DNA of 64,000 nucleotides from Rubrivirga sp. SAORIC476 (GTDB taxonomy: Bacteria > Bacteroidota > Rhodothermia > Rhodothermales > Rubricoccaceae), in NCBI RefSeq assembly GCF_002283555.1, contig NZ_MVOI01000003.1, forward strand, positions 783,070 through 847,069. Reading direction: 5' to 3'. A program made the translations under genes and the position numbers. How positions within the stretch are numbered: position 1 is the first letter of the stretch; each line of letters opens with the position of its first letter. The notes beneath the pieces were generated by a model. The model was not told the origin of the DNA. It made no database searches and saw only the letters and a program-made list of their open reading frames with translations. This document shows positions 18,303 through 37,459 of the stretch, one piece after another.

Positions 18303-18351
18303 GCGCCCCCGATCCCAAAGGAACCGGGGGCGCCCGCCTCGGTGCCGAGGC
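18303..18351. terminator. Paired hairpins between convergent genes (includes dispersed palindrome, copy 3)
   Basis: The first hairpin has arms GCGCCCCCG (18303-18311) and CGGGGGCGC (18325-18333), starting directly after the pentapeptide gene's stop. The second, GCCTCGGTGCCGAGGC (18336-18351), is a member of the dispersed palindrome family. Together they separate two convergent genes and probably end transcription from both sides, although no T-run is seen. Confidence 0.6.
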
Positions 18352-18374
18352 CGAGGGAGTCAAGACGGCGGGGC

Positions 18375-21300
18375 TCAGCCGCAGCCGGTGGACGAGCCGC
18401 AGTTCGGGCAGCTGTAGCAGCTTCCGGCGCGGACCGTGATGCCGCCGCAGTTGGGGCAGGCCGGCGAGTCGTCCTGGTTCTGGAAGGCGCCCAGCTGGCC
18501 GTTCGCGTCGGCCTCCAGGACCGCCTCGACGGAGCCGCCGAGGTGGCTGGCCTGCGTGCCGTCCACGGCCGCCTGCGCGGTCGCGAAGAGGTCCGCCTGC
18601 GACTGGTCCTCGGCCGGGCCGTGGCGGTCCGCCTCAGACGCCACGGCCACCGTAGGGTCCACCGACACCTCCTCCTCGGCCAGGTCGGCCTCGGCGCCGT
18701 CGCCGCCGCCCAGGAACTTGAGCGACAGGTAGCGGAAGATGTAGTCCGTGATCGACTTGGCGATCGGGATCTTGGGGTTGTTGGTGAACCCGGCCGGCTC
18801 GAAGCGGACGTGGCCGAACTTGCTCACCAGGTCCTCCAGCGGCACGCCGTACTGGAAGGCCAGCGAGATCGCGGTCGCGAAGCTGTCCATCAGCCCGGCG
18901 ATGGTCGAGCCCTGCTTGGCCATCGTGATAAAGATCTCGCCCGGGCGGCCCGCGTTGCGGTGGCCCTCCGGGTAGAGGCCCACGTGGAGGTAGCCCTCGT
19001 GGCCGGCGACCGAGAACTTGTGCGTCACCGACGGCCGCTCGTCCGGCAAGCGCTCGCGGTGCGGGCGGTAGACCACCTTCTCGACGATCGTCTCGACGAT
19101 GCGCTCCGAGATCTCGGGCGTCCCGTGGGCCGCGCCGTCGCCCGAGGCGCCGTCGCCGGCGGCCCCTGACAGGGACGGCGAAGCCAACTCGGCCTCCGCC
19201 GTCTCCGTCTTGCCCGCCGTGTTACCGCCCGACTGGGTCGAGAGCGGCTGGCTGCGCTTGGAGTTCTCACGGTAGATCGCGACCGCCTTCAGGCCGAGCT
19301 CCCAGCTCTTCGTGTAGGCGTCCGCGATGTCCTCGATGGTCGCGCTCTCCGGCAGGTTGACCGTCTTCGAGATCGCGCCCGAGATGAACGGCTGGCAGGC
19401 CGCCATCATCCGGATGTGGCCCATGTGCGAGATGTAGCGCTCGCCGTTGTGGGGCTTGAAGGCGCAGTCGAACACCGGCAGGTGGGCGTCCTTGAGACCC
19501 GGCGCCCCCTCGATGGTGTCGTTCTCGTCGATGTAGCGGATGATCTCGGCCACCTCGGCGTCCGAGTAGCCGAGCCGCGAAAGCGCCTCCGGGACCGTCT
19601 GGTTGACGATCTTCATCAGGCCGTCGCCCTTGCCCGCGAGCAGCTTGTACTTGACGAGCGCGAGGTCGGGCTCGATGCCCGTCGTGTCGCAGTCCATCAT
19701 GAAGCCGATGGTGCCGGTCGGCGCGAGCACCGTCGCCTGGGCGTTGCGGTAGCCGTACTGCTCGCCGAGCGTGACCATGCGGTCGGCGCTGGCCTGGGCC
19801 GCCTCGGTGAGGTAGGCGGGGCAGGACGCGTCGATCTCCTTGACCGCGTCGCGGTGCATCCGCATCACGTCCAGCATCGGCTCGGCGTTGTCGGCGTAGC
19901 CGTCGAACGGGCCGATGGCCGGGTTGGCGGCGATCTCGGCGGAGCGGGCGTACGCCTCGCAGTGCTCGATGGCCATCAGCGCCGCCGCGACCGCGCGGCC
20001 CTCCTCCGAGTCGTAGGGCAGGCCCATGCTCATCAGGAGCGCGCCGAGGTTGGCGAAGCCGAGGCCCAGCGGGCGGTACGTGTGGCTGTTCTTGGCGATG
20101 GTCGCCGACGGGTAGCCCGCGTTATCGACCAGGATCTCCTGCGCCGTGATGAACAGCCGCGAGGCCGCGCGGTAGCGCTCGACGTCGAACCGGCCGTCCG
20201 CCGTCTTGAACTTCATCAGGTTCAGAGACGCCAGGTTGCAGGCGCTGTCGTCCAAGAACATGTACTCCGAGCAGGGGTTGCTGGAGTGGATCGGGCCGTG
20301 GTTCTTGCAGGTGTGCCAGCGCTGGATCGTGTCCTCGTACTGCGCGCCCGGGTCGCCGCAGATGTGCGTGCCCTCGGCGATGGTCAGCAGCAGGTCCTGC
20401 GCGTCGACCTCGTCCACCACCTCGCCCGAGGTGACGGCGGTCAGGCCGAACCGCTCGCCCTTGTTGGCGGCTTCCATGAACGCGTCGTTCAGGCGAACCG
20501 ACTGGTTCACGTTCTGGAAGGCGACCGAGCCGTAGGCGTCGCCGTTGAACGAGCCGTCGTAGCCCTCCTCGATGAGCGCCCACGCCTTGCGCTCCTCCGT
20601 CTGCTTGGCGCGGACGAACTCCAGAATGTCCGGGTGCCAGACCTTGAGCGTCTGCATGATGGCCGCGCGGCGCGTCTTGCCGCCCGACTTGATGGTGCCG
20701 CCGGTCGCGTCCTGCACCTTCATGAAGGACACCGGGCCGGACGGGATGCCGCCGCCCGACAGCTTCTCGTGCGACGAGCGCAGCTTCGACCAGTCGGCGC
20801 CGACGCCCGACCCGAACTTGAACAGCCGGGCGCTCTCGCCCATCAGCTGCCAGATGTCGTCCACGGAGTCCTCCACCGAGATGATGAAGCAGGCCGACGC
20901 CTGGGGCCGCTCGTACGGATCCACGTCGACGATCTGCTGCGTCTCGAAGTCCCACCCGGAGATCGTCTTGCCGCCCGAATCGCGGATGCCGTACTGCTGC
21001 CCGAGCCCGACGTTGAACCACACCGGCGAGTTGAACGCGCCGAACTGGTTCGTGCAGAGCCAGGTCAGGTCGTCGTAGAACGTCTCGGCGTCGGTGTCGG
21101 TGGCGAAGTAGTTCTGCTCGCGGCCCCAGTCCGTGATCGTGCGCGTGACGCGGTGGACGAGCTGCTTGAGGCTGTACTCGCGCTGGCCCTCGGCGGGCGT
21201 GCCGTTGCCGGTCTCTACGTCGCCGTAGAAGTACTTGCTCGCGACCACGTTGACGGCGAGCGGGCTGAACGCCTCCGGGAACTCGACGCCCTTCTGCTCG

Positions 21301-21443
21301 AAGATGGCCTCCCCGCTGAAGTTCTTGATGGCGGCGTCGCGCGTCGTCCAGGAGACGCTGTCGAACGGGTGCTGGCCCTCGGTGGAGAAGACACGGTCGA
21401 TGGTGAGCCCGCCGGACGTGGCGGGGGCCTTTTTCTTGGCCAT
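18375..21443 (-). CDS. nrdJ: Class II (adenosylcobalamin-dependent) ribonucleoside-diphosphate reductase
   Basis: A 1022-residue enzyme that makes deoxyribonucleotides using an adenosylcobalamin radical and no oxygen. Visible signatures are FKFGSGVGADWSKLRS in the N-terminal third, NPCSEY with the active-site Cys and Glu, and APTGTIGFMMDCDTTG near the substrate phosphate site. The C-terminus holds a zinc-ribbon-like CPNCGG...CPNCG and ends in Cys-Gly-Cys-Gly, as in other long NrdJ proteins, where terminal cysteines re-reduce the active site. Length is normal for the long form. It is preceded by a 484-bp gap containing a DnaA-box match. No cobalamin riboswitch or NrdR box was recognised, so regulation is unclear. 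Confidence 0.96.
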   Translation of the reverse strand: MAKKKAPATSGGLTIDRVFSTEGQHPFDSVSWTTRDAAIKNFSGEAIFEQKGVEFPEAFSPLAVNVVASKYFYGDVETGNGTPAEGQREYSLKQLVHRVTRTITDWGREQNYFATDTDAETFYDDLTWLCTNQFGAFNSPVWFNVGLGQQYGIRDSGGKTISGWDFETQQIVDVDPYERPQASACFIISVEDSVDDIWQLMGESARLFKFGSGVGADWSKLRSSHEKLSGGGIPSGPVSFMKVQDATGGTIKSGGKTRRAAIMQTLKVWHPDILEFVRAKQTEERKAWALIEEGYDGSFNGDAYGSVAFQNVNQSVRLNDAFMEAANKGERFGLTAVTSGEVVDEVDAQDLLLTIAEGTHICGDPGAQYEDTIQRWHTCKNHGPIHSSNPCSEYMFLDDSACNLASLNLMKFKTADGRFDVERYRAASRLFITAQEILVDNAGYPSATIAKNSHTYRPLGLGFANLGALLMSMGLPYDSEEGRAVAAALMAIEHCEAYARSAEIAANPAIGPFDGYADNAEPMLDVMRMHRDAVKEIDASCPAYLTEAAQASADRMVTLGEQYGYRNAQATVLAPTGTIGFMMDCDTTGIEPDLALVKYKLLAGKGDGLMKIVNQTVPEALSRLGYSDAEVAEIIRYIDENDTIEGAPGLKDAHLPVFDCAFKPHNGERYISHMGHIRMMAACQPFISGAISKTVNLPESATIEDIADAYTKSWELGLKAVAIYRENSKRSQPLSTQSGGNTAGKTETAEAELASPSLSGAAGDGASGDGAAHGTPEISERIVETIVEKVVYRPHRERLPDERPSVTHKFSVAGHEGYLHVGLYPEGHRNAGRPGEIFITMAKQGSTIAGLMDSFATAISLAFQYGVPLEDLVSKFGHVRFEPAGFTNNPKIPIAKSITDYIFRYLSLKFLGGGDGAEADLAEEEVSVDPTVAVASEADRHGPAEDQSQADLFATAQAAVDGTQASHLGGSVEAVLEADANGQLGAFQNQDDSPACPNCGGITVRAGSCYSCPNCGSSTGCG

Positions 21444-21927
21444 AGCAGGGTGGGTGTGGGGGGAACGAAGCGCGACACCAGGGCCTCGATCAGGGTCCGT
21501 GACCCCGACCGGCTCGTGCCGCCGGACTTCAACGCTGGGGGACGGGGGCGAGCCGGGCCGCCCTCCTCGGACGCGCGGCGGCTCAAGCCCGAAGGCGTGG
21601 AAGCGCTAGATGCGAATCCCAAGTAACCCGTGCGCCAGAGGGGGCGCAACCGTCCTCCGTCCACGGGTTATCCACACCGTCGAGAATCGGCCCTCCAGGC
21701 CCGACGAAGGGCCTTTCGAGCCCCGACCGTCGAGGAGGCCTCACATGCACCGTTTCGAAAGCCGTTATACAGAAGCACGCCCCAATAGCGGCTCTACATG
21801 CACCCTCTGTGCACACATCGCGACCCATGCCAGGCCCGATCCAAGTCCGCCATAACGGCCCACCGCCTACAGAGGCGACGGGCTCTCTCCATCGGCGACG
21901 GGCATCCCCCGCCACGCCGCTCGCGGT
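21444..21927. other. Gene-free interval upstream of nrdJ
   Basis: These 484 bases are less GC-rich than the flanks and hold no credible gene. They contain a perfect DnaA-box sequence at 21668-21676, the self-complementary TGTGCACA near 21808-21815, and two opposed GCCGTTAT sequences (21761-21768 on plus, 21852-21859 on minus). It is probably the nrdJ control region. I looked for a cobalamin riboswitch and saw none of its conserved boxes. Confidence 0.55.
21668..21676 (+). promoter_or_regulatory. DnaA-box match TTATCCACA upstream of nrdJ
   Basis: TTATCCACA matches the strict DnaA consensus, about 225 bp upstream of the nrdJ start. A weaker TTATACAGA lies at 21765-21773. DnaA regulates ribonucleotide reductase in E. 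coli, so a similar link is possible. A single 9-mer may also be chance, though it is unlikely in DNA this GC-rich. Confidence 0.4.
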
Positions 21928-22104
21928 CTAGAAGTCGTCGTCGTCGGGCTCGAAGTCGATCTCCTCGTCGAGGTCGAGGTCGTCGTCGTCCAGTTCGAGA
22001 TCGTCGAGGTCCAGATCATCATCGTCGAGATCGAGATCGTCGTCGTCCAGATCCAGATCGTCGTCGAGGTTCAGGTCGAGGTCGTCGTCGGAGAAGTCGT
22101 CCAT
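21928..22104 (-). CDS. Asp/Leu-repeat acidic microprotein
   Basis: A 58-residue protein made almost entirely of Asp, Leu and Glu in DLDLDDDD-like units, with no Lys, Arg or His; its pI must be extremely low. Asp uses both GAC and GAT and Leu uses both CTC and CTG irregularly along the repeat, which argues for selection on the protein rather than simple DNA repetition. The leader is C-rich right up to the ATG, as for other genes here. It is divergent from the acidic hypothetical at 22285 (180 bp apart). The function is unknown. Calcium or divalent-metal binding, or nucleic-acid mimicry, are possibilities only. Confidence 0.6.
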   Translation of the reverse strand: MDDFSDDDLDLNLDDDLDLDDDDLDLDDDDLDLDDLELDDDDLDLDEEIDFEPDDDDF

Positions 22105-22250
22105 GACGGGGGGCGTTTGGAGGGACTGCGGGAAGTCTACCGCGTGCGCCGGGACGGGGGCAAGCCGAACCGGCCACGCACGTGGGGTGAATCGGACGGG
22201 AAAGCCGCGATCTGAAGGCCCGGTTCCGGAGCCTCGCGGGTTCCGCCTCG

Positions 22251-22258
22251 TACCTTCG
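22251..22258 (+). promoter_or_regulatory. Promoter-like motif TACCTTCG
   Basis: This is a match to the recurrent YANCTTGC-type element, 26 bp before the start of the acidic hypothetical gene. It resembles the Bacteroidota -7 element TAnnTTTG. No clear -33 element is paired with it. Confidence 0.4.
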
Positions 22259-22284
22259 CTCCTTCCGACTTCCGACCGCTCCCC

Positions 22285-22692
22285 ATGTTCGACGACCGCA
22301 GCGCGTACCCCCACCCCGACGAGTTCAAGGTGGTCCGCCCCGAGTACTCCGACCCCGAGGACGAGGGCGACGACGTGATCGCGATCATCGAGATCGCGCC
22401 CTTCAAGGTCCTCGGCTACAGCGCCACTCGCCCCGGCGCCCGCCGCGCGGCCCTCTACGAGGCCGCCAAGAAGTACCGCAGCTACCACCCCGGCTACCGC
22501 ATCGAGAGCCCGTTCCCGTCCGAGTTCGAGGACGCCGACGGCAAGACGTGGACGCGCGTCCCCGCGGGCAAGCGCGACGAGCTGGGCGACTACACGTTCG
22601 AGGACGAGGAGGGCGAGGACTCGGCCGACATCGAGCAGATGCTGCTCTGGGACGTCCGCCCGGAGCCCGTCTTCGAGGACGAGGACGAGTAG
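22285..22692 (+). CDS. Hypothetical acidic protein
   Basis: A 135-residue protein without signal peptide or membrane segment. An acidic N-terminus (DPEDEGDD) precedes a folded-looking centre with strand VIAIIEIAPFKVLGYSA and basic helix ARRAALYEAAKKYRSYHPGYRI, and it ends in a run of Glu/Asp (FEDEDE). I do not recognise the family. The codon use and the strong terminator 24 bp after its stop indicate a real, separately transcribed gene. It is divergent from the Asp/Leu microprotein, and both are highly acidic, so a shared role is possible but unproven. Confidence 0.75.
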   Translation: MFDDRSAYPHPDEFKVVRPEYSDPEDEGDDVIAIIEIAPFKVLGYSATRPGARRAALYEAAKKYRSYHPGYRIESPFPSEFEDADGKTWTRVPAGKRDELGDYTFEDEEGEDSADIEQMLLWDVRPEPVFEDEDE

Positions 22693-22715
22693 TCCCGCCT
22701 CGGTGCCCCTCTGCG

Positions 22716-22751
22716 ACGCCGCGCCCCGTCACTCGGGGCGCGGCGTTTTTT
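22716..22751 (+). terminator. Rho-independent terminator
   Basis: A perfect 13-bp stem, ACGCCGCGCCCCG (22716-22728) with its complement at 22734-22746, has a 5-base loop and is followed directly by a run of T (22746-22751). It ends the acidic hypothetical gene's transcript. It is the only textbook terminator seen in the window. Confidence 0.92.
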
Positions 22752-22867
22752 GATGAGATCCCTGGGAGCGTGGGCCGAGGCGTGCGGCGATCCGCGCCGC
22801 CGCTTCGTGCGAGCTTGTGCTCCTGCCCTCTTCCCGACCGCGCCGCCCACCACGCCCGTACCGCCCC

Positions 22868-24358
22868 ATGACCGTCCGCGCCTCTCTCCTCGTCGCCGCC
22901 CTCGCCCTGCTGGGCAGCGGATGCGTGCCCGCCCTCACCGCCGCCTCGTCCACGCCTGCCGGGCAGGCGGCGATGGAACGCGCCGTCCAGACCGCCCTCG
23001 TGCGGGCCGGGCTCGCCGAGGCCCCCGCGACCGGCCTCGACGGCCTCCCCCTGACCGACGCGGTCGCCGAGCGGGCGACGCTCGTTTCCGGCCCGATGCT
23101 GGCGGACGTGACCCACCGCGGCGCCGCCATCTGGGTCCAGGTCGACCGCGACGCCGAGGTCCGCGTCGAGGCGGTCGGCCCCGACTCGCTCGGCGCGGCG
23201 GCGACGGTCGCCACCGACGCGCGCGGCATCGCAACGGTGGTTCTCGACGGGCTGGAGCCGGGCACGGACTACGCCTACACGGTCCTCGTCGATGGGGTCG
23301 CCCTCCAGCCGTCCTACCCGACCGCGTTCACCACGCAGGCGCTCTGGCAGTGGCGCACCGACCCGCCCAGCTTCACGGCGGCCCTCGGCTCGTGCTTCTA
23401 CGACAACGAGCCCGCCTACGACCGCCCCGGCAACGCCTACGGCGGCTCGACGGCCATCTTCGGCGAGATCGCGGCCCTCCGCCCGGACCTGATGCTGTGG
23501 CTCGGCGACAACACGTACCTCCGCGAGGTGGACTGGTGGAGCGCGGGCGGCATCGACCACCGCTTCCGCCACAGCCGCGCCACGCCGGACCTCCAGCCGC
23601 TGCTGGCCTCCACGGCCCACTACGCCACCTGGGACGACCACGACTTCGGCCCCAACGACGCCGACCGGTCGTACGTCCTCAAGGGCGAGACGCTGGACAC
23701 GTTCTCCGCCTACTGGCCGTCCGCCACGCGTGGGATGCCCGGCGTCCCCGGCGTGTTCACCCACTTCCAATGGGCCGACGTCGAGTTCTTCCTCCTCGAC
23801 GACCGCTACCACCGCGCGCCCAACGACGCGCCCGCGGCCGAGCGCACCATCCTCGGCGCCGAGCAGCGCCAGTGGCTCCTCGACGCGCTGACCACCAGCC
23901 GCGCGCCCTTCAAGGTGATCGCCGTCGGCGGCCAGTTCCTCAACCCGCTCGCCGTGTTCGAGACCTTCTCCGCCGTCGCCCCGGCCGAGCGGCAGACGCT
24001 GCTGAACCAGATCGCGGCGCGGCGCATCGAGGGCGTCGTGTTCCTCTCCGGCGACCGCCACCACACCGAGCTGATGCGGCTGGAGCGCCCTGGCCACTAC
24101 CCGCTCTACGAGTTCACCTCCAGCCCGCTCACGGCCGGCGCCTCGACCTACGCCTTGCGCGAGGACTCGCCCGAGTACACCAACCCGCTCCGCGTGGACG
24201 GCACGCTGGTCGCGGGCGTCCACAACTTCGGGACGCTCACGGTGACCGGCCCGCGCACCGACCGCACGATGCGGATGCGGACGTTCGACGCCGACGGCGC
24301 GATGCTCTGGGAGCACACCGTCCGCGCCCGCGACCTGCAGTACCCGCGCGGCGAGTAG
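22868..24358 (+). CDS. PhoD-like metallophosphatase lipoprotein
   Basis: A 496-residue protein. The start at 22868 gives a lipoprotein signal with lipobox LLGSGC. A fibronectin-like N-terminal domain precedes a PhoD-type phosphatase core: GSCFYDNE, LWLGDNTYLREVDW, TWDDHDFGPND and FLSGDRHHTEL supply the metal ligands expected for a calcium/iron alkaline phosphatase D. It probably releases phosphate from phosphodiesters or phosphomonoesters at the outer face of a membrane. It sits 93 bp before the TonB receptor on the same strand and could work with it in phosphorus scavenging, although no Pho box was recognised. Length and motif order match the family. Confidence 0.88.
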   Translation: MTVRASLLVAALALLGSGCVPALTAASSTPAGQAAMERAVQTALVRAGLAEAPATGLDGLPLTDAVAERATLVSGPMLADVTHRGAAIWVQVDRDAEVRVEAVGPDSLGAAATVATDARGIATVVLDGLEPGTDYAYTVLVDGVALQPSYPTAFTTQALWQWRTDPPSFTAALGSCFYDNEPAYDRPGNAYGGSTAIFGEIAALRPDLMLWLGDNTYLREVDWWSAGGIDHRFRHSRATPDLQPLLASTAHYATWDDHDFGPNDADRSYVLKGETLDTFSAYWPSATRGMPGVPGVFTHFQWADVEFFLLDDRYHRAPNDAPAAERTILGAEQRQWLLDALTTSRAPFKVIAVGGQFLNPLAVFETFSAVAPAERQTLLNQIAARRIEGVVFLSGDRHHTELMRLERPGHYPLYEFTSSPLTAGASTYALREDSPEYTNPLRVDGTLVAGVHNFGTLTVTGPRTDRTMRMRTFDADGAMLWEHTVRARDLQYPRGE

Positions 24359-24404
24359 CTCCGCCTCGGTCAGGCGATTCGCCAATCCGCCGCGAAGGGG
24401 GAAC

Positions 24405-24434
24405 GCCGCCTGCGGGCTCCGGCTAGCAGGCGGC
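24405..24434 (+). promoter_or_regulatory. Hairpin in the leader of the TonB receptor gene
   Basis: The arms GCCGCCTGC (24405-24413) and GCAGGCGGC (24426-24434) pair perfectly around a 12-base loop, ending 17 bp before the receptor's ATG. It may be a terminator for the phosphatase gene or an RNA element influencing receptor translation. There is no T-run. Confidence 0.4.
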
Positions 24435-24451
24435 CGATCCCCCTGGCCCCC

Positions 24452-26767
24452 ATGCGTTTCGCCTGCCTCCTGGTCGCCCTCACGGCGCCGCTCGTCTCCG
24501 CCCAGACGCTCACCGGCCGCGTCGTCGACGCGGTGACGCAGGCGACGCTGCCCGGCGCGAACGTGGCCGTCCTCGGTGCCGATGACGCCCTCATCGGCGG
24601 CGCGGCAGCCGACCTCGACGGCGCCTTCGCCATCGAGGGGCTCGCGCCCGGGACGTACCGCGTCCGGGCGTCGTTCGTCGGCTACGACACCCGGGTCCTG
24701 GCCGATGTGGTGATCCAGGGGAGCCGGCCCACGTTCGTCCTGTTCGAACTGCGCGAGGCGGCGGCCGGTCTGGAAGACGAGGTGGTGGTGACGGCGGGCT
24801 TCTTCGAGGACGAGCCCGACGCGCCGGTCTCGGTCGCCGTGCTCGGGCCGGAGGAGATCCGCCGGACGCCCGGCGGGCAGAACGACATCTCGCGCTCGCT
24901 CCTCGCGCTGCCGGGCGTGTCGAGCGGCGTCGACAACCGCAACGACCTGCTGGTGCGCGGCGGCGGGCCGAGCGAGAACGCCTACATCGTCGACGGCATC
25001 GAAATCCCGCAGATCAACCACTTCGCGACGCAGGGCGCGGCGGGCGGCGCCCTCGGGCTCTTGAACGTCGACTTCATCCGCGAGGCGACGTTCTACACGG
25101 GCGGCTTCCCGGTCCGCTACGGCGACGCCGCGTCGTCGGTGCTCGTGGTCGAGAACCGGCCCGGCAGCCCGGAGACGCTGGCGGGCGACTTCACCGTGGG
25201 CGCGACCGAGGCGGCGCTGTCGCTCGACGGCGCGTCCGGCCCCGACTTCAACTGGACGTTCTCGGCCCGCCGGAGCTACCTCCAGCTGCTGTTCGAGCTG
25301 ATCGGCCTGCCCATCCGCCCGGCCTACTGGGACTTCCAGAGCCGCGTCGAGTACACGCCCACCGACGCCGACCGACTCGTCTACTTCGGGATCTGGGCCG
25401 TCGACGACTTCGGCATCATCCAGCCGACCGACCCGGACGACTTCGAGGGGCGGGAGATCGCGTCGCGCGTGCTCGACAACGACCAGCGGAGCTACACGCA
25501 GGGCGTCTCGTGGCGGCGCCTCTTCAAGAACGGCTTCGTCACGACGGCCGTCAGCCGGAGCTACCAGGAGTTCTTCTTCGACGACCTGGACGAGGCGGGT
25601 GTCCCGCTGCTCTCCAGCGACGCCGAGGAGGCCGCCTGGCGGCTCCGCTCGGACGCCGACCTGCGCCTCGCGCCCGGCCTGACGCTGGGCGTCGGCGGCG
25701 GGGCCTCGCGCGAGACCGTCGCCTCGGAGTTCTTCCAGCGCGCCACGCCCGCGACGCCCTTCCCCACCGACCTCACGTTCTCGACCGACCTCGGCCTGTG
25801 GAAGGGGTTCGGCTACGGCCAGATCACGGCCCAGGCCCTCGACGGGCGGCTGGCGCTCACCGCCGGCGTCCGCGCCGACGCGACGGACTTCCTGGACGAG
25901 ACGGCGGTCGTGTCGCCCCGTGTCAGCGCGTCGTTCGACCTGACGGACAAGCTGGAGGTGAGCGCGGCCGTCGGCCGGTTCACCCAGTCGCCCGAGCTGG
26001 TGTCGCTGGCGGTGCAGGAGGACGGCGCGTACGTCAACCGGTCGCTGCGCTGGATCGACGTGGGGCAGGTGGTCGGCGGGCTGGCGGTGACGCCGGTGCC
26101 GAGCCTGCGGCTGGCGGCGGAGGGCTACTACAAGGCCTACGGCGACTACCCGGTCTCGGCGAGCGACCCGCGCGTCTCGCTCGCCAACCTGGGCGGCGAC
26201 TTCGGCGTGGTCGGCGCGGAACCGCTGACCTCGGAGGGCGACGGCCGCGCCTACGGCCTGGAGGTGTCGGCCCAGAAACGGCTCACGTCGCGGTTCTACG
26301 GGCTGGGCAGCTACACGCTGGGCTGGAGCGAGTTCACCGGCGCCGACGGCGTCTACAAGCCGAGCGCGTGGGACGTGCGCCACAGCGTCTCGATGTCGGG
26401 CGGCGTGCGGCTCGGCGGCTGGGAGGTCGGGACGCGCGTGACGGCGCAGTCGGGGCGCCCGTTCACGCCGTTTGACCTGGCGGCCTCGGAGGCCGAGTAC
26501 GCCCTGTCGCGGCGCGGCGTCCCGGACTTCGACCGCCTCAACTCGGAGCGGACGCCCGCCTACGCCCGCATCGACCTGCGCGTGGACCGCCGGTTCGCGC
26601 TGGGACGCCGCGTCAACGGCGTCGTCTACCTCGACATCCAGAATGTGCTCGACCGCGAGAACGTGTTCGCGCTCCAGTACACCGAGGACCCGGCCGTGCC
26701 CGACCGCCTGCGCGAGCAGACCAACGTCGGCCGCCTGCCGACTATCGGATTCAGCGTCGAGTTCTGA
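24452..26767 (+). CDS. TonB-dependent outer-membrane receptor
   Basis: A 771-residue protein. The signal peptide ends VSAQ (residue 18). A carboxypeptidase-regulatory-like domain follows (LTGRVVDAVTQATLPGANV, residues about 20-105). The plug domain holds LLVRGGGPSENAYIVDGIEIP, split here only by description, around residue 165, followed by a 22-strand beta-barrel ending in the aromatic GFSVEF, a typical BamA recognition end. It imports a large substrate with TonB energy. The ligand is unknown and no SusD partner is adjacent; the preceding PhoD-like gene hints at a phosphorus compound. Its stop overlaps the tail of the convergent M23 peptidase gene by 17 bp. Confidence 0.9.
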   Translation: MRFACLLVALTAPLVSAQTLTGRVVDAVTQATLPGANVAVLGADDALIGGAAADLDGAFAIEGLAPGTYRVRASFVGYDTRVLADVVIQGSRPTFVLFELREAAAGLEDEVVVTAGFFEDEPDAPVSVAVLGPEEIRRTPGGQNDISRSLLALPGVSSGVDNRNDLLVRGGGPSENAYIVDGIEIPQINHFATQGAAGGALGLLNVDFIREATFYTGGFPVRYGDAASSVLVVENRPGSPETLAGDFTVGATEAALSLDGASGPDFNWTFSARRSYLQLLFELIGLPIRPAYWDFQSRVEYTPTDADRLVYFGIWAVDDFGIIQPTDPDDFEGREIASRVLDNDQRSYTQGVSWRRLFKNGFVTTAVSRSYQEFFFDDLDEAGVPLLSSDAEEAAWRLRSDADLRLAPGLTLGVGGGASRETVASEFFQRATPATPFPTDLTFSTDLGLWKGFGYGQITAQALDGRLALTAGVRADATDFLDETAVVSPRVSASFDLTDKLEVSAAVGRFTQSPELVSLAVQEDGAYVNRSLRWIDVGQVVGGLAVTPVPSLRLAAEGYYKAYGDYPVSASDPRVSLANLGGDFGVVGAEPLTSEGDGRAYGLEVSAQKRLTSRFYGLGSYTLGWSEFTGADGVYKPSAWDVRHSVSMSGGVRLGGWEVGTRVTAQSGRPFTPFDLAASEAEYALSRRGVPDFDRLNSERTPAYARIDLRVDRRFALGRRVNGVVYLDIQNVLDRENVFALQYTEDPAVPDRLREQTNVGRLPTIGFSVEF

Positions 26768-27707
26768 GCTCGCCCGGCTCGGCGCCGAGATCGAGTGGCC
26801 GGGCAGTTCGCGGCGCCGGACGCCGCCCGACGACGAACGGCTCGGGGTCGACGGCCCCGTCGCGGCCGTAGATGCCGAAGTGGAGGTGCGGCGGCGTGGT
26901 CTCCGCGTTGCCCGTGTTGCCGATCTCCCCCAGCGTGTCGCCGACCGCCACGCGCGTCCCGGCCTCGACGAGTTGGCGGTCGAGGTGGGCGTAGTAGAGC
27001 GACCCGAGGTCGGTCTGGAGCCAGACGACGCGCCCGCCGATCGGCGTCTCCTGCACACGCGAGACACGTCCTGCCAGCCCCGCGACCACCGGCGTCCCCC
27101 GCTCGGCGAAGATGTCGATGCCCTCGTGGCGACGCGCGCCCCCGTCGCGGTCGGCCCCCCACCGGCTTCGGATGGCCCCCTGGTCGACGCCCGCGACCGG
27201 AAAGGCGAGCGACGGGTCGGTCCGCACGGCGACGGAGACGGTGCCCTCGGCGAGCAGTTCGGCCCGGACCAAGAGCACGACGGCCTCGTCGCGCTCTGCC
27301 CGCCACTCGATTCGGAGCGTATCGCGTGAGACCTCCCATCCCCCCAGCCGCTCGCGCGTGGAGTCGGCCGCGAACAGGTCCACGAAGGCCCGGGCGGAGT
27401 CGGCGAGCGCGGGCGCGACCTCGATGGCCAGCACCTCGCCCTGCCGCAGGTCGAGTTCCCAGCCAGCGGCCGCGACGGCCCCGGCCTCGGCGGTGAGCGC
27501 CGGACCGGAGGGCAGGTCCAGGGCGACCGGCGCGTCGAGCGCAGTGGCCTCCGCCTCGGCCCAGGCCCGACCGAGGCGGGTCGAGTCGAGCCCGGCCTCG
27601 CGAAGCGACTCGGCGTAGCGCACGGACGGCGCAGGCGCCGGGCCCAGCGGGGTGAGGTCGGGGCCGCAGCCGACGACGGCGAGCAGGAGAGGGAAGAGCA
27701 CGCGCAT
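26751..27707 (-). CDS. M23-family metallopeptidase lipoprotein (LytM-like)
   Basis: A 318-residue protein with lipobox VVGC at residues 11-14. The N-terminal 150 residues are a beta-rich region of unknown type. The C-terminal LytM domain shows HEGIDIFAERGTPVVA, with the first ligands His and Asp, and PHLHFGIYG with the HxH pair. GSLYYAHLD and GEIGNTGN also fit. Family members cleave peptidoglycan cross-links or activate amidases. Because the zinc ligands appear intact, it is probably catalytic. Its 3' end overlaps the TonB receptor gene tail to tail and contains a degenerate copy of the dispersed palindrome (CTCGGCGCCGAG, 26778-26789). Confidence 0.88.
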   Translation of the reverse strand: MRVLFPLLLAVVGCGPDLTPLGPAPAPSVRYAESLREAGLDSTRLGRAWAEAEATALDAPVALDLPSGPALTAEAGAVAAAGWELDLRQGEVLAIEVAPALADSARAFVDLFAADSTRERLGGWEVSRDTLRIEWRAERDEAVVLLVRAELLAEGTVSVAVRTDPSLAFPVAGVDQGAIRSRWGADRDGGARRHEGIDIFAERGTPVVAGLAGRVSRVQETPIGGRVVWLQTDLGSLYYAHLDRQLVEAGTRVAVGDTLGEIGNTGNAETTPPHLHFGIYGRDGAVDPEPFVVGRRPAPRTARPLDLGAEPGELRTRR

Positions 27708-27770
27708 GGCCGCTCGGACCCGGCCGGGTTCACGCGAGATCCGCGAGTGCGACCAATCGGGGCTCCCCCC

Positions 27771-27799
27771 TTGGTGTGCGTCCAGGGACGGACTAGCTT
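27771..27799 (+). promoter_or_regulatory. Candidate promoter of the recombinase-like gene
   Basis: TTGGTG at 27771-27776, a 17-bp spacer, then TAGCTT (27794-27799, continuing as TAGCTTGC) 26 bp before the start codon. This is the best -35/-10-like pair in the window and supports the start at 27826. Confidence 0.55.
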
Positions 27800-27825
27800 G
27801 CGATAGCCGTTATGTAGCTCCCACC

Positions 27826-28755
27826 ATGCCCGACGCGCCCGCCTCTCCCCTCCGCCTGACCGTCGCCGAGCTGGACAAGCGGCTCGCGACGTTCGTGAGC
27901 GACTACCTCAAGGACAAGAGCCCCGAGACGCGCGGCACGTACCGCCGCTCGCTCAACGAGTTCGAGCGCTACCACGCCGTCCGCGCCCAGCGCCCGTCGA
28001 GCCGCTTCCGGTTCGTCGAGGCCGATGTCGAGGCCTACAAGACGTACCTCATGCAGGAGCGCGAGCTGAGCCAGGTCTCGGTGAGCACCTACCTGACGGC
28101 GCTCCGTCGCCTCTGCGACTACCTCGTCGCTCGGGGCGACCTCGACGAGAACCCGGCCCGCGGCGTCAAGGGCAACCGCCGCCCGCAGTCCCACACGCGC
28201 GGCGTCCTCACCGCCGACGACGTGTCGACGCTGTTCGACGCCGTCCCCCGGATGACGCCGATCGGCCGCCGCGACCGCGCGATGGTGGCGCTCATGGTGT
28301 ACGCCGGCCTGAGCGAGGTCGAACTCGTCCGCGCGGACCTCGGCGACGTGGACCGGACGCTGATGGGCACGTTCCTACGCGTCCAGGGCAAGGGGCGCCA
28401 GACCAAGGACGAGTCGGTCCCGCTGGACCCCGAGGCCGTCGATCCGTTGGAGATCTACCTCATGGAGCGCGACGACGCCGACCCGGCCGCGCCGCTCTTC
28501 GTGTCCCACGGCCACCGGAGCACGGGCACGCGCCTGAACACGCGCTCGGTCCGCGGGCGGATCAACACGCACCTGCGGGCGGCGAAGCTCAAGAAGCGCG
28601 GCATCAGCCCCCACAGCCTGACCCACACGGCGGCCCTGATCTGGCTGACCTCGGGGATGCCCGTCGAGGAAGTCCGCCGGCGGATGCGCCACGGGACGCT
28701 GGAGACGACCATGATCTCGTTCAAGAAGCAGGGACTGCTGAAGGCGGGCGAGTAG
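27826..28755 (+). CDS. Tyrosine-recombinase (XerC/D-like) family protein lacking catalytic residues
   Basis: A 309-residue protein with a SAM-like N-terminal DNA-binding domain (residues 15-105) and a phage-integrase catalytic fold (125-305). The fold is clear, but key residues are changed. The first catalytic Arg (GLRxSE in XerC/D) is Ser163 in AGLSEVEL. The HxxR motif is HSLT (263-266), with Thr for Arg. The nucleophile Tyr position reads TTMISF, with Ser298/Phe299. Lys189 and His289 remain. It therefore probably binds DNA without recombining it. The open frame, length and codon use are intact, so it is a maintained protein rather than a decaying pseudogene. The true XerC/D proteins should be elsewhere in the genome. 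Confidence 0.85.
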   Translation: MPDAPASPLRLTVAELDKRLATFVSDYLKDKSPETRGTYRRSLNEFERYHAVRAQRPSSRFRFVEADVEAYKTYLMQERELSQVSVSTYLTALRRLCDYLVARGDLDENPARGVKGNRRPQSHTRGVLTADDVSTLFDAVPRMTPIGRRDRAMVALMVYAGLSEVELVRADLGDVDRTLMGTFLRVQGKGRQTKDESVPLDPEAVDPLEIYLMERDDADPAAPLFVSHGHRSTGTRLNTRSVRGRINTHLRAAKLKKRGISPHSLTHTAALIWLTSGMPVEEVRRRMRHGTLETTMISFKKQGLLKAGE

Positions 28756-28877
28756 GCGTCGGCGGACGCGCAGCCCGAGAGCGTCGGACTGCCCAGCGCG
28801 TTCCTGCCTTCCTGCGTTCTTCCGGTGCCGCTGGCCATCCAGGCTGCACCTTGGGCTGACTCCCGCCTGCTCTCCCC

Positions 28878-29438
28878 ATGACCCCCATCCCCCTCCCCAA
28901 CGCGGACCTGAACGTCGGCGCCCCCCTCAGTGCCCGGTTTGCGGCGCAGGGGGCGTGGACCTACCGCGACGCCGCGCGGCTGGTGTGGGATCTGCCCGTC
29001 GCCCCGACCCGCCACGCGGGGCTGGAGGCGGTGTTGCGCGACCGCTGCGGCACGCCGAGCACGAAGCACGGCCTGCTGGCGGCGCTCGCCGAGGAGAACA
29101 GACTGCCGGTGGATCTGTGGATCGGCCTCTTCCTGATGTCGGACGCGACCACACCGGGCGTCGGCACGGTACTGAAGCGGCACAAGATGACAGCCGTGCC
29201 CGAGGCGCGCGTGGTGCTGGGGGTCGGCGACGAGCGGATCGACCTGACGTGGCCCGGCCACCTGCGGCCCGTGCCAGACTTCCTGGTCGAGGAGCAGATC
29301 CAGCCCCGTCAGGTCGGCTCCGTCGAGGCCGTCTGGCACCGCCGCCAGTCCGACGCGTGGGCCGAGGCGGGCGGCCTCGACGCGGACGCGGTCTGGGCGG
29401 CGCGCGAGGCCGCCATCGCGGCCATCACGCGACGCTGA
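28878..29438 (+). CDS. Hypothetical protein, possibly transglutaminase-like
   Basis: A 186-residue cytoplasmic protein with no signal peptide. A central segment, RDRCGTPSTKHGLLAALAEEN (residues about 49-69), recalls the Cys-containing helix of transglutaminase-like proteins, and a later WPGHLRP could supply a His. The match is weak and no complete triad can be assigned, so I make no functional claim. A CACCTTGG motif 24 bp before the start resembles the recurrent promoter element. It converges on the lipoprotein gene at 29442, with only 3 bp between the stops. Confidence 0.7.
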   Translation: MTPIPLPNADLNVGAPLSARFAAQGAWTYRDAARLVWDLPVAPTRHAGLEAVLRDRCGTPSTKHGLLAALAEENRLPVDLWIGLFLMSDATTPGVGTVLKRHKMTAVPEARVVLGVGDERIDLTWPGHLRPVPDFLVEEQIQPRQVGSVEAVWHRRQSDAWAEAGGLDADAVWAAREAAIAAITRR

Positions 29439-29441
29439 GCG

Positions 29442-29900
29442 CTATCCGGCCGTGACGACGAAGACGGCCTGGATCGGCTCCTCCGCCTCGTCCGCCGCGC
29501 TGCCCGGGTAGGGAAGCAGGTCGGTCGCCTCCACCAGCGCCTCGCCGACGCGGACGACCGCCGTGTCGCCGTCGCGCGCCATGGCCGCGGGAAGGGTCAG
29601 TACGACCGCTTCGCCATCCACCTCGACCTGGATGCGGGCCTCGCCGGCTCGGATGCAGTCGACGCCCTCCGGGCAGCGGCTGTCTTCGGTGACCGCGACG
29701 AATGTGACCGTGTGGCCCTCGATCCGGGCAGCCTCCCCGATTCCGAGGCGGAAGGGGGCATCCATAGCGGGCGTCTGGACGGTCGCCTCGTCCCCCTCTG
29801 TCGCAGCCGTCTGCGCCGTCGCGCAGCCAGCGGCAGTGAGAGGCAGCAGCAGGGCGGCAGCGAGAAGGACGCGGAGGCGGGAGACTGAGAGGAAGGGCAT
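29442..29900 (-). CDS. Hypothetical lipoprotein, paralogue 1 (DSRCP motif)
   Basis: A 152-residue protein with a lipoprotein signal ending LTAAGC. The mature part holds the motif DSRCPEGVDCIRAGEA, two cysteines likely to form a disulfide, within a small beta-sandwich-like domain (VTFVAV, ARIQVEVDG, AVVRVGEAL). The same motif recurs in the next gene upstream, so the pair is a tandem duplication. Such proteins are common in Bacteroidota, but their function is not known to me. A GTTCTTGC sequence 20 bp before the start resembles the local promoter motif. The start at 29900 begins the signal peptide; a longer frame adds only 11 residues. Confidence 0.78.
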   Translation of the reverse strand: MPFLSVSRLRVLLAAALLLPLTAAGCATAQTAATEGDEATVQTPAMDAPFRLGIGEAARIEGHTVTFVAVTEDSRCPEGVDCIRAGEARIQVEVDGEAVVLTLPAAMARDGDTAVVRVGEALVEATDLLPYPGSAADEAEEPIQAVFVVTAG

Positions 29901-29951
29901 GGGTCCGAGAGAGGTGGGCTGCAAGAACGCCACAGCCCCTCGGAGCGTGCC

Positions 29952-30356
29952 CTACGGCGCCGGGTAGGCGGCGAGCGTGAGCGTCGGCGGCACGCCGGCT
30001 GGCGCGCTGACGCGCGGCTCTGGGGTCAGCGCGACGGCGAACACGATCCGGTCGCCGATACGAACGCCTTCCTCGGAGCGCGTCTCGGGATCGACCACCC
30101 GAAGGTCGCGCGCGACCTCGCCGAGGGCGACCGACACGATCGCCTCGCCTGCCCAGACGCACTCGGCATCCGCGGGGCAGCGAGAGTCGGTGACGACGGA
30201 CGCGAACGTCACGGAGAGGCCGTCGAGGGAGGTCGTGCCGCCGAGCGCGACGGTGGCCTCGCCGGTGCGCGACTCCGCGGCGTACGGCACCGGATCGGCG
30301 GAGTCGCAGGCCGTGAGGCCGAGGGCGAGGAGCAGGGCGAGAGCAGAGATCCGCAT
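29952..30356 (-). CDS. Hypothetical lipoprotein, paralogue 2 (DSRCP motif)
   Basis: A 134-residue protein with a lipoprotein signal ending LGLTAC. It carries DSRCPADAECVWAGEAIV, closely matching the downstream paralogue, in the same beta-rich context (LSVTFASVVT and DRIVFAVALTPEPR). The two genes are 51 bp apart on the same strand, and each has its own promoter-like motif (CATCTTGC on minus, 30385-30392). It probably faces the periplasm or cell surface. No enzyme motif is seen. Confidence 0.78.
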   Translation of the reverse strand: MRISALALLLALGLTACDSADPVPYAAESRTGEATVALGGTTSLDGLSVTFASVVTDSRCPADAECVWAGEAIVSVALGEVARDLRVVDPETRSEEGVRIGDRIVFAVALTPEPRVSAPAGVPPTLTLAAYPAP

Positions 30357-30384
30357 GGGGTCGCGACGGGGAACGTGGAGGGGT

Positions 30385-30392
30385 GCAAGATG
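30385..30392 (-). promoter_or_regulatory. Promoter-like motif CATCTTGC
   Basis: On the minus strand, CATCTTGC lies 28 bp upstream of the lipoprotein start at 30356. It is identical to the motif before the secreted-repeat gene at 39874. Confidence 0.4.
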
Positions 30393-30481
30393 CGGCGATC
30401 CGCCTCGGAATCCACGCCTCGCGACGCAGACGGTCGTTTTTCGCGGCCGACGTGACGCGCGTTGGCGCCCGGCGGTGTGGC

Positions 30482-30501
30482 CCGCCTCGGCGCCGAGGTG
30501 G
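30482..30501. repeat. Dispersed palindrome, copy 4
   Basis: CCGCCTCGGCGCCGAGGTGG starts 16 bp beyond the porQ stop on the minus strand. One G-U wobble replaces a perfect pair. Confidence 0.75.
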
Positions 30502-30517
30502 CCGAGCCGCCTCCTCG

Positions 30518-31504
30518 TTAGAGCTTCGTCCGCACGCCGAACTGGTGGAGGCCGCCGAAGGCGCCCCAGTTGGAGAACGCGTAATCGACCGCGACGCGCC
30601 GCAGCGTGATGCCCGCGCCGATGTTGACGCCCGCCAGGTCGAGGCGTCCGCCCGAGCGCAGGTCGTCGCCGCGGCGGCCGTTGTAGCCCGCGCGGACGGC
30701 GAACGACGGACCGAGTTGGAGTTCGCCACCGAGCGCGAGGTGGTCGAGCGTCCGGGTCACCAGCGACGAGTCGCTGCGGGCGCCCTCGAAGCGGTTCAGG
30801 TCGATGCCCGCGACCGAGAGCGTCAGCGGGACGTAGCGGAGGCGCTTCGAGGCCACCACGCGCACGTCGAGCGGGAGGCGGTCCGCCTCGGTGCCGAACG
30901 ACGACAGCATGGCGCCGACGTGGTGGACGCTCGCGCCGAGCACGACGCCCTGCTCCGGGACGGCCAGCGAGACGCCGAGGTCGCCCGCGAGCGCCTCCGC
31001 CCCGGCGTCGTCGAGAGAAGCGAACAGGCCGTGGAGCGCGAGCCCGACGCGCAGGTCCGGCAGCACCTCGCGTGAGGCCGCCACCGTCACCGCGGCCTCG
31101 CTGGCGCCGAACGTCCCCAGCGTCTCGCCCTCGGTCTCGGCGCCCGTACGCCGCTCGAAGTCGCCGTAGGAGAGGTAGCGGACGCCGCCCGCGAGGCTCA
31201 TCCCGCCCAGCCACGACACGTCACGGGCATACGTCGCCGTGCCCGCGTTCACGTCCAGCAGCAGGTTCGAGTAACTGAGCGCGGCGCGGCGGTCGGCCTC
31301 GGAGGACAGGAAGGCCGGGTTGGCGAACAGCGCCGACGGGTCGTCGCCGACGAAGGCGGCCGGGCCTCCGAGTGCGGCCGTCCGCGCGGAGGCGTCGAGG
31401 CGGACGAGGTCGAAGGCCGTCTGGGTCCGCGACTGGGCGAACGCCGGGGCGGCGGCGAGCACCGCGGCGCTCAGGCCGACGGCGAGGAGACGGAGGGCGC
31501 GCAT
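30518..31504 (-). CDS. porQ: Type IX secretion system outer-membrane protein PorQ
   Basis: A 328-residue predicted outer-membrane beta-barrel of the PorV/PorQ (FadL-like) group. The signal peptide ends APAFAQ. The mature N-terminus, TAFDLVRLDASARTAALGG, with DDPSALFANPAFL following, is diagnostic, as is the closing HQFGVRTKL. PorQ works in T9SS cargo handling at the cell surface. Four secreted proteins in this window end in T9SS-type sorting domains, so the system is in use here. TAGCTTGG on the minus strand (31585-31592) is a possible promoter element about 80 bp upstream. The start at 31504 is set by the signal peptide. It is divergent from the SLC13 transporter. Confidence 0.88.
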   Translation of the reverse strand: MRALRLLAVGLSAAVLAAAPAFAQSRTQTAFDLVRLDASARTAALGGPAAFVGDDPSALFANPAFLSSEADRRAALSYSNLLLDVNAGTATYARDVSWLGGMSLAGGVRYLSYGDFERRTGAETEGETLGTFGASEAAVTVAASREVLPDLRVGLALHGLFASLDDAGAEALAGDLGVSLAVPEQGVVLGASVHHVGAMLSSFGTEADRLPLDVRVVASKRLRYVPLTLSVAGIDLNRFEGARSDSSLVTRTLDHLALGGELQLGPSFAVRAGYNGRRGDDLRSGGRLDLAGVNIGAGITLRRVAVDYAFSNWGAFGGLHQFGVRTKL

Positions 31505-31764
31505 GGGCTGGGCCCGGGGGGGCGTCGTGCGGGCGAAAACGGGACCGTCTCGAAGGGGCGTCGCGGGTGTCGGCGGGTGCGCCCCCAAGCTACGCCGCGC
31601 CGCCCCCGATCGCAGGGCACGCCGCACGCCCCCTCCGCTGCGAGTTGCAGCCTCGGCCTCCGCACGGTGGCCTCACGAAATCGACGAGCGGACACGGCAA
31701 CACCCCGATTCGTGGGTATCTGCCGCCGCTCCCCTCCGCTCCCCGTTACCGGGGCACACGCCGC

Positions 31765-33528
31765 ATGTTCACTGCCCTCTCCTGGGAGGCCTGGCTCACA
31801 CTCGCCATCGTCCTCGGCCTCATCGTGGCGCTCGCGCGCGACGTGGCGCGGCCCGAACTGCTCCTGTTCGCCAGCCTCGCCCCCCTGCTGGCGACCGGCG
31901 TGCTGACGGCCGACGAGGCGTTCGCAGGCTTCTCCAACTCGGCGCCCCTCGCCGTCGGCGCGCTGTTCGTGGTCGCGGCGGGCGTCCAGGCGACCGGCGC
32001 GCTGGCGTTCACCGACCGGCTCCTGTTCCGCCGGTCCGGCCCCCTCGGGGCGACGCTGGGCCAGATGATGCTGACGACGGCCGCCCTCTCGGCCTTCCTC
32101 AACAACACGCCGCTCGTGGCCATGCTGATGCCGCGCGTGCAGGCGTGGTGCGAGCGCAGTGGCGTGTCGCCGTCGAAGCTGATGATCCCGCTCTCGTACG
32201 CCGCCATCGTCGGTGGCATGACGACGCTCATCGGCACGAGCACCAACCTGCTGGTGGCCGGGCTGATGGAGGACGCGGGCCTGCCCCCGCTCGGCCTGTT
32301 CGACCTCGCCGCAGTCGGCCTCCCGGCGGCGGGCGCCGTGATCGTGTACTTCGCGCTGGTCGGCCACCGCTGGCTGCCCGACCGTGGCGCCGACGATGCC
32401 ACGCCGGTCCCGGCGGACTGCCTGTTCGAAGTCCGCCTCGCGCCCGGCTCCCCGCTGGCCGGGCAGACGGTCGAGGAGGCCGATCTCCGCGCGCTGGGCG
32501 ATGCGTTCCTCGTCCACGTCGAGAGCGGCGCCGACGTGGTCCCGGCCTCGCCCGAGACGGTCCTGCGGGCGGGCGACGTGCTGCTGTTCACGGGCACGCT
32601 GGACGCGCTCGACCGGCTCCTCGCCCGCCCCGGCGTCGAGCGCGCCCACGACGCGGCCGAGGCGGAGGGGCTCCCGGTGTTCGAGGCGGTCGTCGCGGGC
32701 CGGTCGCCGCTGGCCGGGCGCACGCTCCGCGAGGTCGACTTCCGGGAGCAGTTCGGGGGCGTCGTGCTGGGCATCCGCCGCCGCGACGGCGCGGTCCACC
32801 AGGCACTCGGACGCACGCCGCTCCGCGAAGGGGACCTCCTGCTGGTCGAGGCGCCTCCGGCGTTCGCCGACCGCTGGGGCCGCGACCGGGACACGTTCTA
32901 CGTCGTCGCGCCGGTGCGCCCCCCCCGGGCCGTACCGCACCCGGCCCGCGCCGCAGCCTCGCTGGTGATCCTCGTCGGCGTGATCGGGGTCGCGGCCCTC
33001 TTCGGCGTGTCCATCGTGACCACCTCGTTCCTGGGCGCGCTCGCGATGGTGGCGACGCGGTGCCTGACGTGGGCCGAGGCGCGGCGCTCGGTGGACCTCT
33101 CGGTGCTGCTCGTGATCGTGGCCGCGCTCGGGCTGGGCAAGGCCATCGAGGGGAGCGGGCTCGCGGCGGCACTGGCGACCCACGTGACCAGTATGTCGGC
33201 AGCGTTCGGGCCCGTCGCCGTCGTCGCGGCCGCCTACATCGCGACGAGCCTGCTGACCGAGATCATCACCAACAACGCCGCCGCAGTGCTGATGCTGGGG
33301 GTCGGGCTGGAAGCCGCCGCGGCGACCGGGACCCCGCCCGAGGCGTTCGCCGTGGCCGTCGCCATCGCGGCCTCGGCCAGCTTCCTGACGCCGGTCGGGT
33401 ACCAGACCAACATGATGGTGATGGCCGCCGGGCGGTACCGGTTCGGGGACTACCTGCGGAGCGGGACCGTCGTGAACCTCCTCGTGGCGGCCGTCGCGCT
33501 GGCGATGATCGCGCTTCTCTGGCTGTAG
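31765..33528 (+). CDS. SLC13/DASS-family anion:Na+ symporter with two RCK-C domains
   Basis: A 587-residue inner-membrane transporter. The first half carries helices with FSNSAPLAVGALFVVAAG, FLNNTPLVAMLMP and MTTLIGTSTNLLV, the family's Na+/anion-binding hairpins. Two TrkA-C-like cytoplasmic domains follow (about 215-300 and 305-385). The last half repeats the fold with LLTEIITNNAAAVLMLG and LTPVGYQTNMMVM. Members move sulfate, dicarboxylates or related anions; the substrate is unclear. The start at 31765 begins the first helix. A short hairpin, CCCCGTTACCGGGG (31741-31754), lies just before it. Confidence 0.9.
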   Translation: MFTALSWEAWLTLAIVLGLIVALARDVARPELLLFASLAPLLATGVLTADEAFAGFSNSAPLAVGALFVVAAGVQATGALAFTDRLLFRRSGPLGATLGQMMLTTAALSAFLNNTPLVAMLMPRVQAWCERSGVSPSKLMIPLSYAAIVGGMTTLIGTSTNLLVAGLMEDAGLPPLGLFDLAAVGLPAAGAVIVYFALVGHRWLPDRGADDATPVPADCLFEVRLAPGSPLAGQTVEEADLRALGDAFLVHVESGADVVPASPETVLRAGDVLLFTGTLDALDRLLARPGVERAHDAAEAEGLPVFEAVVAGRSPLAGRTLREVDFREQFGGVVLGIRRRDGAVHQALGRTPLREGDLLLVEAPPAFADRWGRDRDTFYVVAPVRPPRAVPHPARAAASLVILVGVIGVAALFGVSIVTTSFLGALAMVATRCLTWAEARRSVDLSVLLVIVAALGLGKAIEGSGLAAALATHVTSMSAAFGPVAVVAAAYIATSLLTEIITNNAAAVLMLGVGLEAAAATGTPPEAFAVAVAIAASASFLTPVGYQTNMMVMAAGRYRFGDYLRSGTVVNLLVAAVALAMIALLWL

Positions 33529-33670
33529 GCACGGCCTGCTGCGCGCGTGCGTTCTGCCCAGACGCAGGCACATCGCACCCAGGGCGGGAAGAACGCGCGG
33601 AAACCGCCGGAGCAACGAAACGGACCCCGCCCCGGCACCGTCTCTGGCCGGATCCGCGGACGACGGCACG

Positions 33671-33678
33671 TACCTTGC
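33671..33678 (+). promoter_or_regulatory. Promoter-like motif TACCTTGC before secA
   Basis: TACCTTGC lies 40 bp upstream of the secA start, matching the recurrent element found before other genes. No good -35 partner is seen. Confidence 0.4.
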
Positions 33679-33718
33679 CCGTGGCTGAACGCCCCCCATT
33701 GCTCGACCCTCCGACTCC

Positions 33719-37141
<3,423 letters not shown>

Positions 37142-37459
37142 CACCGCATCGCCGGAGTGACGATCGGGGGACCGGGCAGCCGCTCGGTCCCCCGATCTCG
37201 TTCCGCCTGCCTCGGAGACCTGTGGAGTCACCCGCCGGAGTCCCCCAGCGGGCGGAGTCGGCCCTCGGGCGACGCCGTCGGTGCTGGCCGGACGAGGCAC
37301 AGACCGAGGGAAAGCACCGAGGGAAAGCACCGAGAACGCCGACGGCGACACCGAGGCCGACCGATCTTCGCGCCCGCCGCCGCGACAGTTCACCGCCTCC
37401 GGGATCTCTTGCACCCGAGTCGGGCGTAGCCTACAGCCTCACCCGCCGCCTCCGCTGCC
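37142..37459. other. Gene-free interval between secA and recN, with a 13-bp tandem repeat
   Basis: These 318 bases contain the secA hairpin, then two exact 13-bp units ACCGAGGGAAAGC (37303-37315, 37316-37328) plus a partial third copy to 37334. The right end must hold the recN promoter; no motif is convincing. No gene is seen. Confidence 0.65.
37163..37196 (+). terminator. Hairpin terminator of secA
   Basis: A perfect 12-bp stem, ATCGGGGGACCG (37163-37174) with its complement at 37185-37196 and a 10-base loop, lies 21 bp after the secA stop. No T-run follows, as with most 3' hairpins here. Confidence 0.6.

Follow-up and report, generated by a model that had tools for sequence, protein, structure and literature searches.

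Results

Features of the locus

The stretch of DNA analysed here (64 kb, referred to below as the window) carries the gene for a catalytically degenerate Xer-type protein, which we call dead-Xer, together with nrdJ, encoding a class II ribonucleotide reductase (RNR). Copies of the heptamer CCGTTAT lie upstream of both genes, and these three boxes, at 21762(+), 21852(-) and 27807(+), are the only ones in the window. The features are listed in Table 1.

Table 1. Genes, active-site codons and upstream sequence elements of the locus, with positions in the window.
Feature	Position	Strand	Evidence and remarks
nrdJ, class II (B12-dependent) ribonucleotide reductase	18375..21443	-	PF02867 7e-129, PF08471 4e-19
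TTATCCACA, DnaA-box-like, upstream of nrdJ	21668..21676	+	also in relatives without the dead-Xer family
CCGTTAT box upstream of nrdJ	21762..21768	+	
CCGTTAT box upstream of nrdJ	21852..21858	- (reverse strand)	
TAGCTTG, resembles the Bacteroidota -7 element TAnnTTTG	27794..27800	+	conserved directly ahead of the box among close relatives; alignment by eye
ATAGCCGTTAT, with CCGTTAT box at 27807-27813	27803..27813	+	likely operator of the dead-Xer gene; no binding data
Gene for catalytically degenerate Xer-type protein, 309 aa	27826..28755	+	translation, Pfam, alignment, structure model
Codon of Ser163, Arg-I position	28312..28314	+	S, A, T or G in 47/47 orthologues
Codon of Thr266, Arg-II position (HSLT)	28621..28623	+	T in 47/47 orthologues
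Codon of Ser298, Tyr nucleophile position	28717..28719	+	Y in 39/47, S in 8/47 orthologues

An Xer/Cre-type fold without the residues needed for DNA cutting

The dead-Xer reading frame contains no internal stops. It matches the Pfam Phage_integrase family (4.4e-18), and its N-terminus matches SAM-like core-binding domains. We built a structure model from four sequences (mean pLDDT 73, pTM 0.53), which Foldseek matched to XerA, Cre and XerH with probability 1.00 over nearly the whole length, although TM-scores reached only 0.4-0.6. By domain matches and model, the protein therefore has the core-binding plus catalytic architecture of active tyrosine recombinases. Its best profile matches are TIGR02224 and TIGR02225, and it does not reach the XerC and XerD equivalog cut-offs (119.8 versus 335 and 102.5 versus 330 bits).

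Active-site positions were assigned by alignment to XerD (1A0P) and XerA (5HXY). Ser163 aligns with the first catalytic arginine (Arg-I, GLR..E), Thr266 aligns with the arginine of HxLRH (Arg-II) within a local HSLT motif, and Ser298 occupies the position of the tyrosine nucleophile immediately after the aligned TT.I. The active-site lysine and the two His/Trp positions are retained as Lys189, His263 and His289. Thus, dead-Xer shares the two-domain fold and the active-site Lys and His with XerC, XerD and XerA, but differs from them in lacking Arg-I, Arg-II and Tyr. A sequence-only reading of the gene had claimed a conserved tyrosine recombinase fold, an intact frame and substitutions at Ser163, Thr266 and Ser298 with Lys189 and His289 kept; the alignments to XerD and XerA, Pfam and Foldseek bear out all of this. 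No displaced Arg or Tyr was found in the alignments of orthologues. The loss of these residues is shown; that the family cannot cleave DNA is inferred.

A conserved family with stepwise losses

Of the 60 genomes of the order, 57 encode an orthologue, as a single copy in each and with 33-86% identity, and the close named relatives of the window protein are from Rubrivirga and Rhodothermales. We counted residues in 47 distinct orthologues, excluding the diverged family f15, in which the Tyr region has no clear counterpart. Replacement of both arginines is fixed throughout the order; all 47 sequences keep Lys and the two His residues, and the motif PHSLTHTA is invariant as well. None of the orthologues retains the full catalytic set. 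The tyrosine behaves differently: its loss is not a trait of the whole family but specific to a few lineages, and its retention in 39 of 47 sequences indicates that the loss in the window protein is recent.

Fifteen further members (38-49% identity) belong to other families within the class and phylum. Arg-I is missing from all 15 of these proteins, Arg-II is kept in 11, and Tyr is widely kept. Because Arg-I is lost everywhere, Arg-II partly and Tyr variably, the losses came in steps: Arg-I in all members, then Arg-II in the ancestor of the order, then Tyr in some lineages that include the window's. The family is monophyletic (support 100/99), separate both from the XerC/XerD clade and from the order's intact L002-type enzymes, and dN/dS values of about 0.03-0.28 indicate purifying selection. 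Together, these data show a conserved family of single origin that is vertically inherited and reaches other classes, and the combination of lost catalysis with conservation across the lineage is well supported.

Ten proteins encoded by the window's genome match Phage_integrase, dead-Xer included. Several of the others keep their catalytic residues, among them two L002-type enzymes and an integron integrase (L001 236-1246; TIGR02249, 429 bits). No canonical XerC or XerD scored above cut-off in any of the 60 genomes of the order, whereas the XerD cut-off was passed in 7/7 tested genomes outside it; FtsK gamma was present in 19/19 genomes tested. The single-contig genomes G010 and G032 have just two recombinase-type proteins, dead-Xer and an intact L002-type enzyme. 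A possible structural precedent, PDB 9i5v chain 14 (named RaiA, 401 aa), was set aside: it begins with an Xer-like domain whose motifs are intact, so it is no precedent for a dead one. That chain is perhaps an Xer-HPF fusion.

The gene resides in a housekeeping context

In 34 of 41 loci the gene directly upstream, on the same strand, is one that we take to be a 2-oxoacid dehydrogenase E2 gene, named by eye from its sequence. This place is occupied in the window by an M23 peptidase gene, which lies on the opposite strand. Outside the order the neighbours vary and are housekeeping genes; in G182 (L132), from another class, the gene adjoins recF-, dnaN- and dnaA-like genes. The best plasmid and phage matches to the protein are distant (about 27-34% identity). 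With such neighbours and such remote plasmid and phage relatives, a mobile element or phage integrase was rejected. Control of the adjacent E2 gene is also unlikely, because the CCGTTAT box stays with the dead-Xer gene even at loci that have lost E2, the window among them.

A CCGTTAT box precedes the dead-Xer gene

The sequence-only reading had also credited this gene with the best promoter-like sequence in the window. That claim failed: a sigma-70 scan of positions 18000-37900 found no promoter-like site, and the conserved TAGCTTG and CCGTTAT elements were found upstream instead. The Bacteroidota -7 consensus is TAnnTTTG. Within the window's family, a TAGCTTG-like sequence immediately precedes the box, which is 13-35 bp upstream of the start codon. 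Aligned upstream regions place CCGTTAT before most orthologues of the order in constant orientation; it was found before none in families f4 and f15, the latter having few boxes overall. An unbiased word count upstream of the gene returned CCGTTATT in 34/52 and CGTTATTG in 33/52 regions. CCGTTAT occurs 36 times in 8.4 kb upstream of the family gene, versus 43 times (both strands) in 535 kb elsewhere. The longer pattern ATANCCGTTAT has a single match in the whole genome, namely the element upstream of the dead-Xer gene.

Boxes cluster upstream of ribonucleotide reductase genes

Eight genomes were scanned for CCGTTATTGA, which gave 38 matches versus 8 for the reversed control, with clusters upstream of ribonucleotide reductase. 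With nrdJ start codons placed by rule, CCGTTAT is the most widespread heptamer upstream of this gene in the order (35/36 genomes, 106 copies; shuffle mean 3.5, maximum 10). In other families, genomes with a dead-Xer member carry boxes at nrdJ in 8 of 14 cases (12 copies versus 1.2 expected), and 12 genomes without the dead-Xer family have none (0 versus 1.2 expected). The DnaA box TTATCCACA served as a built-in positive control, as it is frequent before nrdJ within the order and occurs there in all 12 of these relatives. Fourteen neighbouring box pairs at nrdJ are spaced 23-24 bp apart, and the boxes are not arranged like dif, as two inverted copies around a 6-bp centre. Two genomes encode a second RNR that is likewise preceded by three boxes, and in G175, from another class, about 130 bp separate the dead-Xer gene itself from an ATP-cone RNR gene downstream of it. 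These box counts come from related genomes, which are not independent samples. The family-less genomes belong mainly to one sister group with a distant nrdJ (about 45% identical), and the absence of boxes there may reflect one evolutionary event rather than twelve. The link between box and gene is statistically strong in the order and weak outside it.

No NrdR box was found at nrdJ (the best match has 5-7 mismatches of 16), and no known RNA element of any weight was found around nrdJ or the dead-Xer gene. An origin of replication at nrdJ was considered and rejected, with at most two TTATNCACA per locus among 14 examined. Beside nrdJ, positions 22285-22692 encode a small protein without a Pfam family (MFDDRSAYPHPDEFKVVRPEY...), and other families of the order have a similar gene next to nrdJ. 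In two families (L238, L253), a pair of boxes with a spacing of about 55 bp adjoins a rhomboid-like gene.

Discussion

We propose that dead-Xer is an Xer-derived, non-cutting DNA-binding protein that controls its own gene and RNR, a reading for which the evidence is evenly poised in the absence of binding data. The earlier suggestion of a fold repurposed for DNA binding or architecture is supported, and control of these two targets is a likely narrower form of it, although binding remains untested. In our model, the family would have split from Xer-like tyrosine recombinases and lost strand-cleavage chemistry, while keeping the C-clamp DNA-binding fold. The protein would then bind CCGTTAT boxes as a sequence-specific regulator that does not cut. 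One or more boxes at its own promoter would provide autoregulation, and the array upstream of nrdJ would place dNTP supply under its control beside DnaA. The sign of regulation is inferred; we guess at repression, since the region where transcription of the dead-Xer gene presumably starts overlaps the box.

Although the boxes and their placement are shown, that the window protein binds its own boxes is inferred and could as well prove wrong as right. The Cre mutants R173A and R292A do not recombine loxP but still bind and synapse it (PMC4381057), so by analogy a protein lacking both arginines would still bind DNA. In dif, the inner arms have the sequence TTATG (PMC2731167); CCGTTATGCAA shares this inner TTATG, and CCGTTATGCAA and CCGTTATTGAC both carry TTAT. 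Self-binding is therefore plausible, though the match is short. A bolder reading, towards which we lean a little less than we lean away, is that a tyrosine recombinase has become a transcription factor, with the whole order controlling RNR, and the protein its own gene, through a single half-site-like CCGTTAT box and without cutting; here too, binding is inferred.

Our main doubt is whether dead-Xer or another regulator sits on the boxes, since that no other protein binds them is itself inferred. It is possible that the dead-Xer gene is a member of the regulon rather than its master, with another transcription factor binding CCGTTAT at nrdJ and at the dead-Xer gene, and with dead-Xer performing a co-regulated task of DNA metabolism, for example chromosome organisation or the binding of intermediates in replication or repair. 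In line with this rival and against our proposal, three draft genomes of the order without a detected family member (G005, G023 and G030; 85-96% complete) still have nrdJ boxes, and in families f4 and f15 no box precedes the dead-Xer gene. Single copies of CCGTTATTGA before topoisomerase IV/GyrA-like, smc and rpoD genes (L247, L249, L251, L240), in one or two genomes, are also consistent with it and hint at a wider regulon. However, no candidate factor was found, nrdJ lacks an NrdR box, the box contains the inner TTAT of Xer arms, and boxes are absent where the family is missing. This last point is tempered by the distant type of nrdJ in the family-less genomes, so that box absence may possibly follow the enzyme.

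A role in resolving chromosome dimers, as the non-cutting half of a heterodimer with an intact, active Xer-like recombinase at a dif-like site, is unlikely. The failure of all 60 genomes of the order to pass the XerD cut-off, the retention of FtsK gamma and the wide distribution of an intact L002-type enzyme would fit such a partnership. Yet the L002-type enzyme is present in only 37 of 60 genomes and falls outside the family clade, genomes elsewhere encode full XerC and XerD alongside a family member, and the boxes are not arranged as dif-like sites. A recombinase still active through replaced residues is very unlikely. Invariant Lys and His residues, Tyr in most orthologues and an invariant PHSLTHTA speak for one, but both arginines are absent, no mobile element surrounds the gene, and several lineages, the window's included, have dispensed with Tyr and conserved everything else. 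Finally, a decaying pseudogene or old integrase remnant would explain the loss of active-site residues, but this alternative is all but excluded: conservation refutes it, given the open frame, the purifying selection across the order, the conserved place and the operator-like box.

If our reading of dead-Xer as a regulator is true, its job would resemble that of NrdR, which controls RNR and often NrdR itself. NrdR consists of a zinc ribbon and an ATP cone and binds acaCwAtATaTwGtg (PMC4009431), whereas dead-Xer has neither domain and nrdJ here has no NrdR box. The domesticated Crypton-type recombinases of eukaryotes are likewise recombinase domains kept by their hosts for new roles (PMC3212892). 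Those proteins are eukaryotic and of transposon origin, whereas dead-Xer is bacterial, Xer-like and chromosomal. We found no paper on the dead-Xer family in the literature searched.

An order without canonical XerC and XerD raises the question of how its chromosome dimers are resolved. If dead-Xer is indeed a regulator, a bacterial host would have retained a recombinase fold for non-cutting control, with its losses laid out stepwise, and an RNR regulator would be named for a lineage whose nrdJ shows no NrdR box.
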